DNA from: Verrucomicrobiia bacterium
Lineage (GTDB): Bacteria; Verrucomicrobiota; Verrucomicrobiia; Verrucomicrobiales; DEV007
Assembly: GCA_030427505.1 (NCBI GenBank)
Contig: JAUICH010000022.1
Coordinates: forward strand, 1 to 64,000
DNA length: 64,000 nucleotides
Direction: 5' to 3'
Shown: one piece after another, positions 40,297-49,198 of the stretch
How the letters are laid out: each line of letters begins with the position of its first letter
Numbering within the stretch: the stretch's first letter is position 1
Position numbers and translations under genes: made by a program
Notes under the pieces: generated by a model
The model's input: only the letters and a program-made list of their open reading frames with translations
Databases searched by the model: none
Told to the model about the DNA's origin: nothing

Positions 40297-41796
40297 CTAC
40301 GGCTGCACGCCCAGGTGGTAGGTCGCGGTGTTTTCCAGCACGCTGGTGGCGCTGAGCACGTCCTTCGGCAGGTGGTCAAAGCGGTCTCCGTATTTCTCCA
40401 TCCATTCGTCGTGATAGATGATGGCCTTCAGTTTGCCCTCGTTCCATTCCCGGATGGTATCCGAGCTGGAGCGCACCGGCGGGCGGGGATCTTCCAGGTA
40501 GCAGCTCAGGGATTCGTGCTTCGGACGGACGATCTCCCACTCGCCACGGTCCGCCGGCAGGTAGGGCCGCGCCTGGTCGCAAAACTGTTTCAGGACGGTA
40601 TGGTTCTCCGCCACGGTGCGCCGGATTTCCAGGGCACCGTAGACACTCCACGCCACCGCGCTGAAGGCGACCAGCCCCGTCACGGCAGCCGGCGCCCAGC
40701 GGACGGGTTTTGGCGCCGCGGCCGCCCGCCGCAGCCAATCCATGGCCGTCAAGGAAATCAGGAGACACATCGGCGGCAGAACGGGGTAAATCCGGTCGGG
40801 CCGCTTGGATGGCACCAGGGACATCACCACCAGTCCGGCGAGAATCCAGCAGATCAGCCAGATTGTTTCATTGGACAAAACCGGCAGGCGCTGGTCCGAA
40901 TGGGCGCTGGCCGCGCTACTTCTCCGGTTTTTCCACCATCCGCCCGCCAGTATCAGCAGCGCGGCGGACCAGGGCAGCCACTTGTGCAGCAGGTGAGTGA
41001 CGTAGAAATAGACCGGCTGAGGCTCATAGCGCGCCTCGTCCCCGGTTTCGAAACGCTGGAGGAATTCGTCGTGCACCACCTCTTTGTAGAACGCCTCGTT
41101 CACCTTCAGGCCCACGCCCACCCAGAGGGCAAAAGGCAGCAGTGGCAGCAACAGGGCCAGAAATCCCGGCCACGCGGGCGCCAGGGTCCGGCCCCGGAAG
41201 CGGTTCGTCACCAGGTAGGCCACCATGGCCGGAACGACGAAGACGTATATGATAGGCCCCTTCAGGAAGCAGGCGAAGGCCAGCAAGACTCCCAGCAGCC
41301 ACCGGTGTTTGGCCGTCCACGGCTGACCAGCCTGGATGCGTTCCAGAAAAAGCAAACCCGCCCCCAGGGTAAAGGCCGCCAGCGCCATGTCCGTCCGGAC
41401 CAGGGTGGCGAGACGCAGGGACAGCATGTTAAACGCAAAGGCCGCCAGCGCGATGAGTCCCCCACCCCGCGCCGTCAACCGGTTTCCCCAGACATACAAT
41501 CCCCACAAAATGGCCAGCGACGCGAGAAAGGGCGGCAATCGAAAGGCCACCGGCCACGGCACGCCCACCAGGTGAAACCCCGCCGCCACCCAGCCCTGCA
41601 ATGGCGGCTTCGTGGCGGAGCGCCCCCGCGCGGTCTCCTGGTACCACCACTTGCCGCCTTCCACCATCTGGATGGAGGTGAAGGCCTGCTTCGCCTCGTC
41701 ATAGGCTTCGTAGTGCCAAGGCAGGTTCCGCACGGAAAACACCACCACGGCCAGCGCCACCACGGCGAAAAGGAACCACTTGGATGAAAGCGTCAT
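40297..41796 (-). CDS. ArnT/PMT-like membrane glycosyltransferase (GT39/GT83 type)
   Basis: A 499-residue protein with about 11 membrane helices. The first periplasmic loop begins YEAYDEAKQAFT with Asp33-Glu34, the acidic pair of the protein O-mannosyltransferase/ArnT superfamily, and continues WWYQETARGRSATKPPLQGW, where the K-P-P-L motif is typical. Helices such as WLLGVLLAFACFLKGPIIYV and FLALLLPLLPFALWVGVGL follow, then a hydrophilic C-terminal domain of about 110 residues. It probably transfers a lipid-linked sugar to a lipid or protein in the periplasm. Single gene. Confidence 0.85.
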   Translation of the reverse strand: MTLSSKWFLFAVVALAVVVFSVRNLPWHYEAYDEAKQAFTSIQMVEGGKWWYQETARGRSATKPPLQGWVAAGFHLVGVPWPVAFRLPPFLASLAILWGLYVWGNRLTARGGGLIALAAFAFNMLSLRLATLVRTDMALAAFTLGAGLLFLERIQAGQPWTAKHRWLLGVLLAFACFLKGPIIYVFVVPAMVAYLVTNRFRGRTLAPAWPGFLALLLPLLPFALWVGVGLKVNEAFYKEVVHDEFLQRFETGDEARYEPQPVYFYVTHLLHKWLPWSAALLILAGGWWKNRRSSAASAHSDQRLPVLSNETIWLICWILAGLVVMSLVPSKRPDRIYPVLPPMCLLISLTAMDWLRRAAAAPKPVRWAPAAVTGLVAFSAVAWSVYGALEIRRTVAENHTVLKQFCDQARPYLPADRGEWEIVRPKHESLSCYLEDPRPPVRSSSDTIREWNEGKLKAIIYHDEWMEKYGDRFDHLPKDVLSATSVLENTATYHLGVQP

Positions 41797-41905: not shown

Positions 41906-42574
41906 TCAGGACTTCGGCGTGGCTTCCCAGACTTTCACGTTGTCGATCGCCACGGACTCGCCCTTCACCACGAAGCGGATGTTCGGCTTCTTCGTGTCAA
42001 AGCTGGGATGGGCCGCGGTGAGGGTGGCTTCGTCGCCGATCTTCACGGCAATCTGTTCGCCCACGACTTCAGCGGTCACGGTGTAGGATTTGCCGGGCTC
42101 CAGCGCCAGATCGGTTTTCGCCAGGGCTTCGGTCTTGGAATTCGGGTCTTTCTTGTCCCGGTCTTTCTGCAGAGTAGCGCCGGTGGGCGTGAGGCTGAGG
42201 CGCCACAGGTGGCCTTTCTCGTAGTTAAAGCTCAGGTCGAAGCCCTTGGCGCCGTCAAAGGCAATGTCGAACTGCACGACCACGTTCTGGTTGGGCTTGG
42301 TGTAGGAGAGGACGCCAGCGTGCTTGTCCGCCGCCAGTTCGGAGGCTTTCAGCACCCCGTCCTGGATCTCCCATTTGCCCTTGGCGGCGGCCCAGCCTTC
42401 GCCCAGTTCGCCACTCTTGGAAAAGTCTTCATCCAGCCACTGGTCCCCGGCTTCGGCCAGGGTCAGCTTAGGCGCCGGTCCGGCCGTCGCGACTGAGCCC
42501 ACCAGGGCGGCCATCGAAAAAGCGGAGAGACCCGCCACGGCGGTCAGGATACTAAGGGAGGTTTTCGGTTTCAT
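41906..42574 (-). CDS. Exported jelly-roll protein of unknown function
   Basis: A 222-residue protein with a signal peptide (GLSAFSMAALVGSVATAGPA). The mature part reads WLDEDFSKSGELGEGW, then KGKWEIQDGVLKASE, VVQFDIAFDGAKGFDLSFNY, LEPGKSYTVTAEVVGEQIAV and a closing IDNVKVWEATP. This is the same plan as the protein at 18545-19309 (DUF1080/LamG-like): an opening DxF strand, a W-x-x-x-DGVL strand, then KxY strands and a final V-x-VW strand. A carbohydrate-binding or hydrolytic role outside the cytoplasm is possible; no catalytic residues are evident. Confidence 0.7.
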   Translation of the reverse strand: MKPKTSLSILTAVAGLSAFSMAALVGSVATAGPAPKLTLAEAGDQWLDEDFSKSGELGEGWAAAKGKWEIQDGVLKASELAADKHAGVLSYTKPNQNVVVQFDIAFDGAKGFDLSFNYEKGHLWRLSLTPTGATLQKDRDKKDPNSKTEALAKTDLALEPGKSYTVTAEVVGEQIAVKIGDEATLTAAHPSFDTKKPNIRFVVKGESVAIDNVKVWEATPKS

Positions 42575-42709: not shown

Positions 42710-45700
42710 TTACTGGTCCTGCACGATAGGCAGGTAGACATCCGGGATGCCGAAGAGCCTCAGGCTGTTGTAGGCGCCCACGCTCAGGTCGTAGATCATA
42801 TAGATGCGGTAATCGGTGTCCTGGCGTCCGAACTGGCGGGCCGTCTTTTTCTTCTTACCGTTCTCTTCTTCCAGGAGTCCTTCGTTCCAGGCGTTCAGCA
42901 GATCTTCCAGGGAAGCGAAGTCCTCCAGGTCCACCGAGTTCAGGAAGGCCAGGAAGTCCATGGGCAGTTCGATTTCCGGCAGTCCGCCCTCCGGCAGTTC
43001 CACCGGAAGCTCGACTTCAGGAACCTCCACGTCACCACCGCCGGTAACGTCTCCTCCCGTGCCGCCACCTCCGCCGGAGGAACCACCGGTCACGAGGCCC
43101 GGCACGTCTTCGATGGCGTCGTAGTAGAAGGTGTAGCGGCCCGCGCCACTCACTGCGTTGTCAGCGTTGTAGTCGCTGGTGCCGTCACCCAGGCTTCCAG
43201 CGGCGAGACCGGTGAGATTTCCGTAACCACCGGGGCTCCCCACCGTGGCAATGGCGCCATTCGGGAAGGCGGAGGAACCGGGCACGGTGGAGACACCGTT
43301 GTTGTCCCACCACAGGTCAGGCTGCAGGTAGATCTCATCCGCGCGTTGGAAGGCGGCCTGTGAACCCAGCACATGAGAGGAAGGCATCGCGAAGTCCGCG
43401 TCCGTTCCCACGTAGGTGGTGGAGTCCTCGTTCAGGCGGGTTTGACTGTCGATCAGGTTATTCGACCGGGAGGGAATGTAGAAGCGCAGTTCCGTGCCCG
43501 CGCCGGACAGCCCGCTGGTGAAGACCGATCCCCAGGAGGTCAGGGTGCCCGGACCTCCGTGGAACGGATTGTTCCGGCTCACGCCGACGTAGGTATTCCC
43601 GCTCAAGGCCAGGGCGGAATTCCCCCCCAGCTGGGTCCACGGATCCACGTGGCCAACCAGGGTGTGATCGAACACCGCGCTGTTGCCCACGGAGATGGTG
43701 ATGTTGCCTTCCTTCAAGCCCGCGCCCGAAGAATCCGGCGTGTTCTTCATCCAGTCGCCATGACCGATCTTCACGTAGTTGTCGTTCAGGTTCGGGCTGT
43801 CGCTGTCCGCGGTGATCAGGTCGTTGCCGACCAGGATCACAATCTCGCCACTGGCGTTGCCGGACACGCTGGCGCCGCCGTTGCCGATCTGCACGAAGCT
43901 GTCCTTGATGGGGTTCAGCACCTCATTGGGCGTCTGAGCGCCGGTCATGAGCAGGTCGTGACCGGCCTGGACCGTAATGTTGCCCGTGTGAGTGCCGGGT
44001 TCCAGGTAGCTGCCGTTGCCGATCCTGACAAAGGCGCCAATCTGGCCCGCATACACCCCAGACACATCGAAGGAGGCTTCATTGTGCGAACCGGCTTCCA
44101 TGATCAGGTCATGGCCCACCGTCACGTTGATGTCGCCGGAGGTATTGCCATCCTGGCGATAGCCGCCGTGGCCGATGCTAGCGTGCGCGCCTTCCACGAT
44201 GATGGGAGCGCCGATATCCGATGGGTTCTGCGTGTAGGCATTCTGGCCGCCTTTCAGGATGAGATCCTGGCCGGCATTCACGGAGATGTTACCGGAATGA
44301 ATACCGTCGTCGTCGCCATTGCCGTTGGTGCCATGGCCGATCTGGGCTTGAGAGCCCCGGTAGCCATTACCGCCGTAGAGTTCCACGTTCTCCGCGGCCG
44401 TCACGATGATGTCGCCGTTGCCGTTGAAGTTGTCATTGTCGTAGGCGCCGCCATGACCGATGCGGACCGCATTGTCCATCGCGGGAACGCCCACCGGATT
44501 GGTGGAGGAGGTGATGTCCTGGTTCGCCTCGGCCGCGGCGGCGGCGTTCAGAATCACGCTGCCATTCTGGGACGTGACGGTCAGGTTACCGGTCGCGGTG
44601 AAGTTGTCGTCATTCGCGCTGCCCCCGTGACCGATCTGGGTGTAGTACCCCTGGTAGTCGCCGTTGTTCATCGTGATGTCGCCGCCCGCGATGACGGTGA
44701 CGTCACCATTCTTGTTAGCGCCCGTGGCCGTGGTGGTGTTCAGACGGTCGGAGTCCTGACCGCCGTGGCCGAACAGCACGTAGGCAAAGGCCGGAGAGAT
44801 GGTCGCGGACTGGTCGGTAAACGTCGCTGGCGTGGCATCTCCGGAAGCCATGTGATCCATGACAATGTCTCCGTCCACGGAGATGGAGATGTTCGCGGAA
44901 CCGTTGTAAACCGGCGCGCTGCCACCCCGGGTATAGTCGCCGCCTACCTGTCCGTGGGAGGAGTAACCGCCGTGCCCGATCTGCGCGTAGTTCCCCTGCA
45001 CCACGCCACCGGTGGCGATGAGGTCGCCATTGTTGACCGTCACCGTGATGTCGCCGGACTTGTGCTGCTGCTGAGTGGAGAAGCCACCGTGCCCGATCTG
45101 GGCAAAGGCGAAGCGGGTGCCGTCCGAGGAAGTGGCTCCGTCAGGATAGTTCCCGCCGCTCATCACCAGGTCGCCATTGGAGGTGACGGTGATGTCGCCT
45201 TTCAGAACATCGGAGTTGGCACCCTGCCCCATGTTGTAACCACCGTGACCGATCATGGCGTAGTTGCCGCGGCCTTCACCGGCGATGAGGTCGACCGCGC
45301 CGCTGATGGCATTCACCACGATGTCGCCATACATGTTCACCATGGCCAGGTTGCTGTCCGCCATGCCGCCGTGGCCAATCTTGGCGAAGGCGCGGGAGCG
45401 GTTGCCCACGACGCCCGCCGGGTAGTCACCGCCCCGGACGGAGATGCCACCGGTCCCATTGGAAGTGACGGTCACGTTACCGGACAGGGTGGTGTCCACC
45501 TGCGCGCCCCGGCCCGCGTTGCGCAGCGTGGCGTTGTTGAAGTCCGTGGAACCCACGCCACTGCCAGCGCCGGTGTTATTGAAGTAGCGAACCTGAGCCG
45601 TTCCCTCACGCGGATCCTGTGAAGCCAGGTAGGCTGGGGTATGGCCGATGGAGGCATAGCTCCCCACGCCACTGCCGGCGCGCACCGTCACGTCACCCCC

Positions 45701-48700
45701 GGCATCCACGTCAATGTTGCCGGTCACGCCGCCGAACTGGCCGGAGCCCAGGTGGCCGATGAGGGCGTAGCGCTGCGAGCCCGTGCTCTGCGAGGCCTGG
45801 ACCAGCACCAGACCGGCGGAGTTGGTCGCCAAACCGGTGGCGGGATCGATGCCCGTGCGAATGGTGATGTCCCCTTCCACGTCCGCGAGGCGGGCGATGG
45901 AAGCGCCGGCCCGGTTGTGGGTGGACCAGTTGACGGACCGCGCCGGAGTACTGGTCAGGCTCGTGTCCGTGGAGTCCCGGCCATCCCAGCCGCGGTTGGC
46001 CGATTCCTGGGCATAGCCCCCATGACCGATCTGAACATAGGCGTTGGTCCCCGTGCCGGCCTGAGCGATCAGGGCGCCCCGCGTCAGAACCGTGATGTCA
46101 CCGGTGGCGCCATTCTCCGGCAGCTTGTTGCCCATGCCGTCGGTGGTGTCATCCAGGTTGTGCCACCAGTAGTTGCCAGTGACCGAGTCCATCCAGTGGT
46201 CCGAATAGGGAACGAAAGTCGTGGCTTCGTCGCCGCTGTTCGGGATGCCGTCCGGATCGTAATACAGCGCACCGTCCGTGCTGCTGACCAGGGCCACGCC
46301 ATTCTGGCCGCCCACGGTCACTTCGTTCTGGCCCGCGATGGCGGTGTAGGTTTCACCGGACGCCATGGAGTCTTTGGTGAAGGCCACTTCCACGCCCGCG
46401 CCACCAGCGTCGATGGCGGTGTTGAAGGTGATCGTGCCGGTGGCGTAGTTGATCGTGCCCACGGTAGCGGCGCCGCTCTTCAGGTTGCCCGCGCCATCAT
46501 CCGTGTAGATGACGGGCGTGCCAGCCGGGCTCACCCGGACCTCAACGGAACCAGGCACCAGGTTGGTAAAGCCCACGCTCGCGCTGGCGCCGCCCCCCGC
46601 CTGGGCCGCGCTGTCGAAGGCGGTCGAGGTGTAGCCTTCGCCAAACACGGTGCCGACCGTCAGGTCGTAGTCGTTCACGCTGGTGCCGCCACCGCCATAG
46701 TTGATCCGGCCGGATGCCACAAACACCGCGCCGCTGTCATGGAAGCCCAACTGGGCGTGCGCCCGTGTCCCGGAAGAAGCGCCGGAAATCAGCACGTTGT
46801 AAGCGGCCACGTTGGTGTCGCCGTAGCGGCTGCCTACCTCCACATGGGTGCCGTTGCCCATGTCATTGACATAGACGGAACCGCTGTTGTTCCCGAAAGA
46901 AGTGGGCGTGCTGGAGATCGCCGCCCAGGCGTCCTCCGGGCTGACCGCGTTGATCTCGGTCAGGCCCGTCGAGCCATCCCAGCCAGACACCACGGTTACC
47001 GAGCCGCTGCCCGCGTTGCGCACGTGAGTGAGGAAATAGATATCCCCCGTGGCGAAGACGCCGAAGTCCGCAGAGGTGTTCCACTGGATGGCTTCGTTCC
47101 AGTCGTCATCCTGACCGACGTTCCGGAAGGTCACATTGCCGTTGCCGGAGCCCGCGGTCGTGGTGGCGATAATGAAGTTCGTCTCGCCCTGGAGCGCCGT
47201 GTTGATGGTGGAATAGGTCAACGTGTCGCTCAGGCTGTCGCCCACCGTCACGTTGGCGGGGTCCACCAGGAAGGTGCCCGCCGCGCCATTCACGGCGCTG
47301 GCCGTGGCCGTGCCGCGCAGCCAGAGATTGTTCTTACCGGACACCTCCACGAAACCGCCATTGCCCACGGCGCCGAGCGCGCGGGCGCTGATGGCGCCAT
47401 TGAAGGTGGTGTCGCCATCCGACCAGATGACGACGTTCCCGCCGTTGCCGCTGTTCAGCGCGTCCGCTTTGATCGTGGCGGTAGCGCCTACGACGGTCTG
47501 GCTGGAGTTGCGCAGGTTGGAGTCATTCCCCTGGAAGCCGCCCCCCACGTTCACCTGGCCGCCGCCAGAACCGCCCGAGGCGTCGATGGAGGCCGTGGTG
47601 GAAACTTCCACGTAGTCACCGGTGATGTTCACGGTGCCGCCAATACCCGTTCCGCCCGTGGCGGTCATGGTGCCGCGAGCCATGGTGTCGCCGGGAGAAT
47701 CGACGGTAATGGTGCCGCCATTTACGCCGCCGTTCGCGCTTACGTTGCTGGTGGAAGTCAGCTCCACGCTGTCCGCGCCGGTGATGGCGATGAGGCCGCC
47801 TTTCCCGTTGGCGCCGTTTGCCAGCACCTGTCCGCCGATGGTGGTGGCGCCCTGGCCTTCCACCGTAATGCTACCGCCGTTTTGCTCGCCATTCGCGCTG
47901 ATGACGGAACCGGTCAGCGTGGTGATGTCACCACCCGTCACATGAACCAGGCCACCGTTTACCGCGCCATCCGCGGCCAACTGACCCGCGATGGAGATCT
48001 GGCTTCCCGCGCCGCCGGCGACTAGCACCGTACCGCCGTCACCCGTGGAACCGCTCGCGCTGACGCGCGCGCCACTGCCGACGTTCACGGAAGCCGTGGG
48101 CGTTCCGCCATCCGTCCCCGTGGAACCGATCCTGACCGAACCACCATCGCCGCCGTCCGCGGTCACCCGCACGCCGGAACCGATGGAGATGTTTTCACCC
48201 ATCACGGAGATCGCGCCGCCGGGCAGACCGCCTAGGCCGTTGGCATCCAGCTTGCCCGCCGCGATGTCCACCGTGCTGGCGGGACCGCCGTCGATGACGA
48301 TCTCGCCACCGCTGCCGTCCACATTCCGCGCTTCGATGGCGCCGGTGTTCGTGATGTTGCCGCCCATCGCTCCGGCGGAAAGCAGGACGCGGCCGTTCTG
48401 GTTCACCGCGCCCGTGGCGCGAATGAGACCGCTGTTGTTAATGGCCAGGGCAAACACGTTGCCGTGGGCCTTCAGTTCCGCCGCGGCCGCCACAATACTG
48501 CCCGCGTTATTCACGCCCGTGCCTGTTCCGTTTCCGGCGCCCGCGTTCACAAAGACCCGCTCGTCGCCATGGGCTTTGATCAACACATCGCCTCCGGCGG
48601 CCAGGCCCACCCGGCCGTCCACCGCGCCGATGGTCCCCTGGTTGTCGATGTTGTGGCCGATCAGGAAGATGTCCCCCTTCGCGGACTTGATGGTGCCGTA

Positions 48701-49198
48701 GTTCGTCACCGCCGCCGTGGAAGGACCGTGGAAGCGGTCGTCGCCACCATTCAGGAAGTCCGCGTCATCGATGTCCAAAGTGGAACCGGTGAAGCCCCCG
48801 AAAACATCCACCACGCCGGAAGGACCCACCAGGATGCCGTTCTGGTTCACCAGAAGCAGCTTTCCGTTCGCGGTGAGCAGTCCGTTCAGAACAGAGGGAT
48901 GCACGCCCACCACGCGGTTCAAGGCCGCCGAAGACGCGCCCGGTTGAAAGAACTGAGTGATCTCTCCATTCTCAATCGAGAAGCTCTCCCAGTTGATGAT
49001 GGCTTTGTCCGTCATCTGGTGAATCTGCAGGTGCGCCGGATTCTCCACGTTGAACTCCGCCACGCCGTGCGTCACCACACCGCCGGAGGGGTTGGCCATT
49101 GCCGGAACGGCAAAGGTAAAGAGACTGGGGATCAAGGTCCCCAGAGAAACAACCCGCGCGGCAGTACTGCGGCGGAGAAACTTCACTACATTTTTCAT
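42710..49198 (-). CDS. Giant two-partner-secretion-type adhesin with IGHGG repeats
   Basis: A 2162-residue secreted protein. Signal peptide about 1-35 (SLFTFAVPAMA). Residues about 36-280 are a TPS/filamentous-haemagglutinin N-terminal domain: NPAHLQIHQMTDKAIINWES, FQPGASSAALNRVVG, NGKLLLVNQNGILVGPSG and GDIFLIGHNIDNQGTI. Next, about 300 residues of short Gly-rich beta-helix repeats end in AAGTFLVDPANVTVG, as in TPS adhesins. Residues about 1050-1820 hold some 15 repeats of 45-60 residues, each with an A/Q-I-G-H-G-G loop followed by GDITV strands. A Gly/Val/Pro/Glu-rich spacer (GGSSGGGGGTGG; VPEVELPVELP) leads to a 60-residue end domain (KKKKTARQFGRQ to LPIVQDQ) with no autotransporter barrel. 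The outer-membrane partner (TpsB) is not in the window. Confidence 0.88.
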   Translation of the reverse strand: MKNVVKFLRRSTAARVVSLGTLIPSLFTFAVPAMANPSGGVVTHGVAEFNVENPAHLQIHQMTDKAIINWESFSIENGEITQFFQPGASSAALNRVVGVHPSVLNGLLTANGKLLLVNQNGILVGPSGVVDVFGGFTGSTLDIDDADFLNGGDDRFHGPSTAAVTNYGTIKSAKGDIFLIGHNIDNQGTIGAVDGRVGLAAGGDVLIKAHGDERVFVNAGAGNGTGTGVNNAGSIVAAAAELKAHGNVFALAINNSGLIRATGAVNQNGRVLLSAGAMGGNITNTGAIEARNVDGSGGEIVIDGGPASTVDIAAGKLDANGLGGLPGGAISVMGENISIGSGVRVTADGGDGGSVRIGSTGTDGGTPTASVNVGSGARVSASGSTGDGGTVLVAGGAGSQISIAGQLAADGAVNGGLVHVTGGDITTLTGSVISANGEQNGGSITVEGQGATTIGGQVLANGANGKGGLIAITGADSVELTSTSNVSANGGVNGGTITVDSPGDTMARGTMTATGGTGIGGTVNITGDYVEVSTTASIDASGGSGGGQVNVGGGFQGNDSNLRNSSQTVVGATATIKADALNSGNGGNVVIWSDGDTTFNGAISARALGAVGNGGFVEVSGKNNLWLRGTATASAVNGAAGTFLVDPANVTVGDSLSDTLTYSTINTALQGETNFIIATTTAGSGNGNVTFRNVGQDDDWNEAIQWNTSADFGVFATGDIYFLTHVRNAGSGSVTVVSGWDGSTGLTEINAVSPEDAWAAISSTPTSFGNNSGSVYVNDMGNGTHVEVGSRYGDTNVAAYNVLISGASSGTRAHAQLGFHDSGAVFVASGRINYGGGGTSVNDYDLTVGTVFGEGYTSTAFDSAAQAGGGASASVGFTNLVPGSVEVRVSPAGTPVIYTDDGAGNLKSGAATVGTINYATGTITFNTAIDAGGAGVEVAFTKDSMASGETYTAIAGQNEVTVGGQNGVALVSSTDGALYYDPDGIPNSGDEATTFVPYSDHWMDSVTGNYWWHNLDDTTDGMGNKLPENGATGDITVLTRGALIAQAGTGTNAYVQIGHGGYAQESANRGWDGRDSTDTSLTSTPARSVNWSTHNRAGASIARLADVEGDITIRTGIDPATGLATNSAGLVLVQASQSTGSQRYALIGHLGSGQFGGVTGNIDVDAGGDVTVRAGSGVGSYASIGHTPAYLASQDPREGTAQVRYFNNTGAGSGVGSTDFNNATLRNAGRGAQVDTTLSGNVTVTSNGTGGISVRGGDYPAGVVGNRSRAFAKIGHGGMADSNLAMVNMYGDIVVNAISGAVDLIAGEGRGNYAMIGHGGYNMGQGANSDVLKGDITVTSNGDLVMSGGNYPDGATSSDGTRFAFAQIGHGGFSTQQQHKSGDITVTVNNGDLIATGGVVQGNYAQIGHGGYSSHGQVGGDYTRGGSAPVYNGSANISISVDGDIVMDHMASGDATPATFTDQSATISPAFAYVLFGHGGQDSDRLNTTTATGANKNGDVTVIAGGDITMNNGDYQGYYTQIGHGGSANDDNFTATGNLTVTSQNGSVILNAAAAAEANQDITSSTNPVGVPAMDNAVRIGHGGAYDNDNFNGNGDIIVTAAENVELYGGNGYRGSQAQIGHGTNGNGDDDGIHSGNISVNAGQDLILKGGQNAYTQNPSDIGAPIIVEGAHASIGHGGYRQDGNTSGDINVTVGHDLIMEAGSHNEASFDVSGVYAGQIGAFVRIGNGSYLEPGTHTGNITVQAGHDLLMTGAQTPNEVLNPIKDSFVQIGNGGASVSGNASGEIVILVGNDLITADSDSPNLNDNYVKIGHGDWMKNTPDSSGAGLKEGNITISVGNSAVFDHTLVGHVDPWTQLGGNSALALSGNTYVGVSRNNPFHGGPGTLTSWGSVFTSGLSGAGTELRFYIPSRSNNLIDSQTRLNEDSTTYVGTDADFAMPSSHVLGSQAAFQRADEIYLQPDLWWDNNGVSTVPGSSAFPNGAIATVGSPGGYGNLTGLAAGSLGDGTSDYNADNAVSGAGRYTFYYDAIEDVPGLVTGGSSGGGGGTGGDVTGGGDVEVPEVELPVELPEGGLPEIELPMDFLAFLNSVDLEDFASLEDLLNAWNEGLLEEENGKKKKTARQFGRQDTDYRIYMIYDLSVGAYNSLRLFGIPDVYLPIVQDQ
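43738..46035 (-). repeat. IGHGG-coding repeat array inside the adhesin
   Basis: About 15 in-frame repeats, each coding an I-G-(H/N)-G-(G/D/S/T) loop preceded by a strand ending in A-Q, V-R, Y-A or Y-V, spaced roughly 140-250 bases apart. Variants include IGHLG and IGHTP near 45650-45770, FGHGG near 44760 and IGNGG near 43880. DNA sequence between repeats has diverged, so they are old. A consensus unit is G-D-I-T-V-x(n)-G-G-D-x-(M/L)-x-x-G-G-x(n)-A-Q-I-G-H-G-G. Confidence 0.8.

Follow-up and report, generated by a model that had tools for sequence, protein, structure and literature searches.

An orphan TpsA-type exoprotein with IG[H/N]GG repeats and a conserved cysteine-free tail in a Verrucomicrobiia bacterium

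The gene at positions 42710-49198 of the window (the whole stretch of 64,000 nucleotides analysed, from contig JAUICH010000022.1, hereafter C30) probably encodes an orphan TpsA of a two-partner (type Vb) secretion system. The protein would be exported in trans, would fold into a beta-helix filament at the cell surface with a ladder of turn residues pointing inward, and would be held there by its C-terminal tail. Adhesion is the usual function of such two-partner exoproteins, and by analogy we infer the same function for the C30 TpsA. The TpsA/type Vb kind of protein is already known; what is new is its type of repeat, the conserved tail free of cysteine and the association of this tail with an extended TpsB. 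With these elements, a seemingly orphan giant becomes a member of a definable two-partner exoprotein subfamily that has its own repeat unit, conserved ending and transporter type.

Domain organization of the C30 TpsA

The minus-strand reading frame is intact from its ATG start over 2162 codons, and the encoded protein of 2162 aa contains no cysteine. All parts described below lie on the minus strand. A putative signal peptide, read by eye, occupies residues 1-35 (49094-49198). The TPS secretion domain (residues 35-288; 48335-49096) was matched by PF05860 (E 9.4e-23; 81.9 bits against a Pfam cut-off of 33.5), as expected of the TpsA class, and by TIGR01901 (E 6.6e-17). A glycine-rich stretch without Pfam match (residues 289-640; 47279-48334) presumably continues as beta-helix, to judge from its sequence. 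The IG[H/N]GG repeat block with its 15 motifs spans residues 1040-1860 (43619-46081), and a beta-helix was predicted in the part that was folded (residues 1419-1930). In the alignment of relatives, the block is followed by a conserved C-terminal region (residues 1861-2035; 43094-43618) with the invariant columns DEIYLQPDLWWD, PGG..NL and YTFYYDAI, by a variable Gly/Pro and charged linker (residues 2036-2117; 42848-43093) and, as the tail comparison showed, by a conserved cysteine-free tail (residues 2118-2162; 42713-42847), YMIYDLSVGAYNSLRLFG.

At E values up to 1, the whole protein gave only the TPS domain in Pfam and only the corresponding adhesin domain in NCBIfam; the C-terminal translocator barrel of a classical autotransporter (type Va) was not found by Pfam at this threshold. 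The first-pass annotation had described a TPS-type exoprotein with an N-terminal TPS domain, a glycine-rich beta-helix, a Lys-rich stretch and an LPIVQDQ end. The first two are supported by the present analysis, and both of the latter are present in the translation.

Just downstream, a 222-aa protein (41906-42574, minus strand) showed a sub-threshold Pfam match to the 3-keto-disaccharide hydrolase/laminin-G-like type, and a PMT_2-type glycosyltransferase gene lies beyond it at 40297-41796. The glycosyltransferase was dropped as a candidate partner, since other genes lie downstream of the two other copies of this TpsA type.

Sequence of the repeat unit

The IGH-type motifs of the C30 protein begin at residues 1057, 1147, 1184, 1274, 1316, 1368, 1407, 1476, 1522, 1580, 1620, 1675, 1726, 1771 and 1811. 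The earlier count of about 15 IGHGG repeats is thus real, and the repeat length of 45-60 residues given with it holds roughly, the actual spacing being 37 to 90 residues. Exact GHGG occurs nine times, and Asn is the central residue in 2 of the 15 motifs. Within residues 1001-1900, the expression [ILFV]G[HN]G was observed 13 times, against at most 5 (mean 0.6) over 1000 shuffles. Anchoring on the motif in the TPS proteins of the same genome (G000; a 6.4 Mb assembly of 56 contigs) gave the consensus [YF]-A-Q-[IL]-G-[HN]-G-G, preceded by a coil G-D-I-x-V-x-A-G-G-D-[ILV]. Most often, the next G-D-I-x-V lies 9 residues after a motif, and a further 16 residues lead to the following motif. From these distances, the minimum repeat unit is 37 aa, corresponding to two beta-helix coils of 18-19 residues.

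When the flanks were fixed and the central position was left free, the central residue in 550 motifs of the G000 TPS proteins was His in 368, Asn in 107, Gln in 45 and another residue in 30, and never Asp, Glu, Lys or Arg. Among the 117 motifs from 24 relatives, 74% have His and 24% Asn, and charged residues are again absent. When 25 rows were aligned, His or Asn made up 183 of the 184 letters in the eight coil-B columns (C30 residues 1478, 1524, 1582, 1622, 1677, 1728, 1773 and 1813). In the other coil type, Gly or Asn predominates at the matching turn, with Arg, Asp and Glu tolerated, and near the C-terminal end of the C30 repeats His or Asn occurs in both coil types. The loop had been called invariant, with one histidine per coil; its central residue is in fact His, Asn or Gln, and, outside the C-terminal end, one histidine per coil does not hold either, the minimum unit comprising two coils. 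Being free of charge in hundreds of copies, this turn position offers a large natural data set on the residues that a beta-helix turn accepts.

The impression that the repeat was an unrecognised one agrees with our searches: neither Pfam nor NCBIfam (E up to 1) contained a model that matched the C30 repeats, and phmmer found no match of residues 1040-2162 among PDB sequences. The same two libraries, run on other TpsAs of G000 and on the TpsB, returned only TPS, TpsB and weak unrelated matches, and the idea of a known domain was dropped. A literature search with subscription journals outside its coverage found no account of the IGHGG repeat or of the conserved tail, and the term "histidine ladder" was found there only for leucine-rich repeats.

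Predicted structure and the probable role of the turn

AlphaFold2 was given C30 residues 1419-2162 together with 24 relatives. The resulting model had a mean pLDDT of 69.0 and a pTM of 0.72, with pLDDT of at least 70 in 408 of 744 residues and at least 90 in 207 of 744. A beta-helix pattern extends from about residue 1430 to about residue 1930, beyond which the confidence is low. The long beta-helix of imperfect repeats that marks a TpsA is thus predicted over this range, and outside the cell the chain would fold into a long parallel beta-helix. A Foldseek search of the PDB with the C30 model gave no significant match (best E 0.41). In a second structure comparison against the PDB (VIA), 67 chains were aligned, with beta-solenoids and parallel beta-helices at the top. 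The best row was 3p4g_C (Z 15.0, rmsd 3.5, 240 aligned), and other rows included polysaccharide lyases and epimerases (Z about 12), the Sf6 tailspike (11.3), UpaB (11.0) and Ag43 (10.1), though such Z values for repeat proteins may reflect a common arrangement. At the level of the model, these matches support a beta-helix and no particular family. The C-terminal part folded alone (mean pLDDT 61.4, pTM 0.53) was predicted, with low certainty, as a charged helix followed by a beta-hairpin.

In our best reading, the IG[H/N]GG repeats serve as structural turns. In the model, G-[H/N] lies in a strand break of two to four residues, and the residue before it is the last of the strand in all eight folded coil-B motifs. 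Since G-[H/N] lies at a strand break and the exchange among His, Asn and Gln is an uncharged one, a ladder-like turn fits better than metal or glycan binding. To judge from the alternation along the strand (Tyr out, Ala in, Gln out, Ile in, Gly out, His in), the central residue would point inward. Every second coil would then contain IG[H/N]GG as a tight turn, with the His, Asn or Gln side chain most likely facing inward and forming hydrogen bonds along the helix axis, as part of the scaffold and not as a binding site. The residue statistics and the turn position fit an asparagine ladder of the kind found in pectate-lyase-type helices, and the alternation suggests the inward orientation.

The conserved tail and the extended TpsB

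The last approximately 25 residues of the C30, C42 and C55 proteins read YMIYDLSVGxYNSLR[LI]FG. The expression Y-x-x-[DE]-x-x-x-x-x-Y-S-S-x-x-[VLI]-F-G or a close variant of it ends the protein in 24 of 24 distinct relatives' loci and in all three copies of G000, and it matches 1.6% of shuffled ends. Its core is Y-S/N-S-x-R-V/L-F-G, without cysteine, and the last 400 residues contain no cysteine in 24 of 24 relatives. The first-pass annotation had reported neither an autotransporter barrel nor a sorting signal at this end. The absence of a barrel stands; the second statement is not supported, the last approximately 25 residues being a tail conserved throughout the family. A related YSSF-x-VFG lies 60-74 residues from the end in five giant TPS proteins and is absent from C34a, C45, C47a, C7 and C43. 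A profile of the tail gave 22 matches in 10 of 57 genomes; 20 of these lie in frames of 805 to 2857 aa, and the other two fall in short frames where a contig begins. The tail is missing from six rows of a related group of repeat proteins (L093-L095, from G017, G025 and G032), which have proline-rich ends in which C-terminal repeats of PxPAMxDPFGTPPP replace YSSxRVFG.

The POTRA_2 domain lies at residues 194-255 in the TpsB on contig C9 of G000 and at residues 345-415 in a relative's TpsB, and the part preceding it has no Pfam match. This N-terminal extension (121 aa of the C9 copy) was matched in 10 of 57 genomes, nine of which bear the tail. Among the 57 genomes, nine have both, one has the tail only and one has the extension only. 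The single "extension only" genome (G035), scored as a miss, has a tail variant GHYSSNNLFG below the model cut-off, and the single "tail only" genome (G018), also scored as a miss, has a downstream frame weakly similar to the extension (39.5%). Some TpsB (ShlB match) is present in 30 of the 57 genomes, and within these the counts of 9/1/1/19 gave a Fisher p of 7e-6, a value confounded by shared descent and operon linkage. At the level of gene content, the co-occurrence shows linked inheritance, not binding. It suggests that the tail and the TpsB extension may work together.

Candidate TpsB partner

Full-length relatives of C30 residues 1040-2162 are encoded on C42 (57%) and C55 (53%) of G000. 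The C55 frame runs off one contig end and a C4 frame runs off another; the two seem to be pieces of a single gene, which gives three dispersed copies of the C30-type TpsA (C30, C42 and C4/C55). Six ShlB (TpsB) matches, all of them intact ShlB-type frames, were found in G000, and none of them is on contig C30. It had been stated earlier that no TpsB partner is present. This is correct for the neighbourhood of the gene and wrong for the genome.

A contig scan with an 11-row alignment gave 25 loci of relatives, of which L097 and L098 are nearly identical (24 distinct loci). All are labelled Verrucomicrobiales, Akkermansiaceae, Verrucomicrobiaceae or Verrucomicrobia/Verrucomicrobiia MAGs. A TpsB lies on the same strand downstream of the TpsA in 20 of the 25 loci (19 of the 24 distinct ones), and the contig ends within 450 bases in two of the five loci that have none. 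Two of these 20 TpsB frames, directly 3' of intact TpsAs, stop early (L113:12774-13640, 289 aa; L118:12666-13463, 266 aa), either because the genes are broken or because of errors in the assembly.

In a tree of ten TpsBs, the C9 TpsB, which carries POTRA_2 and ShlB, clustered with four operon TpsBs (100/98; 48 to 56% identity). Just upstream of it lies a frame-broken relic of approximately 260 bases from a C30/C42/C55-type TpsA (L078:6370-6640). Read in two frames, the relic best matches C42, at 56% over 51-52 residues followed by 56% over 32; C55 and C30 are matched as well. The simplest history would be that the usual operon was once present, that the TpsA was lost there, and that the C9 TpsB now serves the dispersed copies. 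In a relative (G020), a C30-type TpsA (C335) and an extended TpsB (C89) lie on separate contigs, and another TPS frame adjoins the C89 TpsB. A TPS-domain tree, built from 22 of 40 rows because the motif expression missed the TPS domain of the other 18, showed three clusters (the C30, C42 and C4 copies; the giants of G000 with others; the relatives) and neither proved nor contradicted the pairing with C9. The N-terminal TPS domain would direct the C30 TpsA to an outer-membrane TpsB, and export in trans would most likely proceed via the C9 TpsB, the ortholog of the TpsBs that lie directly downstream of C30-type TpsAs in relatives.

Alternative interpretations

It is worth noting that other interpretations of the repeats and of the gene have been weighed. 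The first-pass annotation had read the stacked histidines as a surface ridge of the helix that binds metal or an acidic glycan. Structure prediction, which it proposed as a check, does place the histidines at the same turn of the coil, with G-[H/N] at the strand break in eight of eight folded motifs, so that the motifs could line up along one edge as supposed, although not with one histidine per coil. In addition, all 25 rows have His at residue 1850, albeit outside the IGHGG motif. A binding ridge is nevertheless quite improbable. His, Asn and Gln exchange freely, Asn or Gln taking the place of His in 152 of the 550 own motifs; no acidic or basic residue or Cys occurs there, and no charged residue in the relatives' 117 motifs either. 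His and Asn also exchange at the orthologous columns 1677 (13 His, 10 Asn) and 1813 (8 His, 16 Asn), and the parity of the strand Y-A-Q-I-G-H groups His with the small or aliphatic Ala and Ile. A ladder-like structural turn is therefore the reading that we prefer.

As for export, a TpsA of the same kind could be served by one or several of the five other TpsBs of G000. All six frames are intact, the C30 TpsA is tied to no single partner by the TPS-domain tree, and TpsBs can serve more than one TpsA according to the available part of one account (PMC5422565). We consider this somewhat unlikely, since the C9 TpsB alone groups with the operon partners and has the TpsA relic beside it, and since the N-terminal extension, with one match in G000, is found only on the C9 TpsB. 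Less likely than this is an orphan copy that is no longer exported and serves as a store of sequence that can recombine with other TpsAs; the lack of an adjacent TpsB, the scattering of the three copies and the broken state of a further one would be in line with such a role, but the frame has stayed intact and has retained both the TPS domain and the tail. A TPS domain and a long beta-helix are also carried by CDI- or polymorphic-toxin-type proteins (PMC5422565, in the part available), in which a C-terminal effector would be expected. That the C30 protein belongs to them is very hard to believe: its C-terminus is conserved and not variable among orthologs, ends in a short tail and gave no domain match in Pfam or NCBIfam at E values up to 1. 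We thus retain an exported TpsA with the C9 TpsB as its most likely partner.

Comparison with known systems

FHA-type TpsA proteins (type Vb) have a TPS domain, a long repeat-built beta-helix, export by a TpsB and a precursor end that is processed. The C30 TpsA resembles them in its N-terminal TPS domain, its predicted long repeat-built beta-helix and its presumed TpsB export. It differs in that its repeat unit carries the IG[H/N]GG turn, no TpsB adjoins it, and a short conserved C-terminal tail stands in place of the processed end. HMW1/HxuA-type TpsAs likewise have the TPS domain and the beta-helix, and as in them the C-terminus of the C30 TpsA may be held at the TpsB. The anchor of the HMW subfamily, however, is a C-terminal disulfide (PMC4873976, in the text available), and an anchor of this kind is absent here because the C30 protein, like the last 400 residues of its relatives, has no cysteine. 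In the TPS adhesin CdrA, the C-terminal tail remains periplasmic (PMC5422565, in part). The CdrA tail is cleaved by LapG, whereas a LapG-family protease (PF06035) was not found in G000, the one genome searched, and C30 has no cysteine; LapG-type release was rejected on the absence of PF06035.

The charged linker and the conserved cysteine-free tail would probably keep the exoprotein attached at its TpsB. It is possible, and we put it forward tentatively, that this constitutes a third way of TpsA retention, in which the cysteine-free tail (the charged linker and a Y-S-S-x-R-V-F-G hairpin) docks on the additional periplasmic segment at the N-terminus of its own TpsB. The Verrucomicrobiales family concerned would have polar turn ladders longer than any others seen (tens to over 100 IG[H/N]GG steps). 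Should the tail act as an anchor, retention would here do without the disulfide by which the HMW subfamily is defined.

For the H/N turn, the asparagine ladder is the nearest precedent by analogy. A PL6 alginate lyase has a 10-step asparagine ladder in its T2 loops (PMC6879350, in the part available). Asparagine-ladder beta-helices (PL1, PL6, PL9 and AlgG) resemble the C30 protein in having a polar residue at one turn of successive coils. Unlike in these, His is the commonest residue in C30-type motifs and the step falls mostly on every second coil. The number of steps in the putative ladder is also far larger, with 15 in C30 and as many as about 146 IG[H/N] motifs in one of the giants.

Giant TPS proteins and abundance of the repeat

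G000 is an extreme case, with 14 TPS matches (13 above the cut-off) and frames of up to 8265 aa. Giant TPS frames with the same repeat are C41b (8265 aa, 146 IG[H/N] motifs), C34b (7388 aa, 111), C45 (5759 aa, 89), C41a (at least 6324 aa, 100) and C48 (at least 4407 aa, 61). The number and length of the giant frames on C41, C34, C45, C48 and C47 (L067-L076) are lower bounds, since several contigs end within a frame. An IGHGG pattern at the DNA level gave 269 matches in G000, against at most 26 in each of 144 other genomes of the phylum; in 56 relatives of G000, it gave at most 124 matches per genome.

Tandem arrays of at least three C30-type TpsAs, most of them with the tail, were observed at L090 and on contigs C56 and C124 of G018, and the N-terminal part of a G018 TpsB beside one such array has diverged. 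Another TPS type, whose frame is nearly constant in size at about 3,100-3,970 aa, was found repeatedly in several families within the order (genomes G037, G050, G044, G056, G026, G029, G012, G017 and G025).
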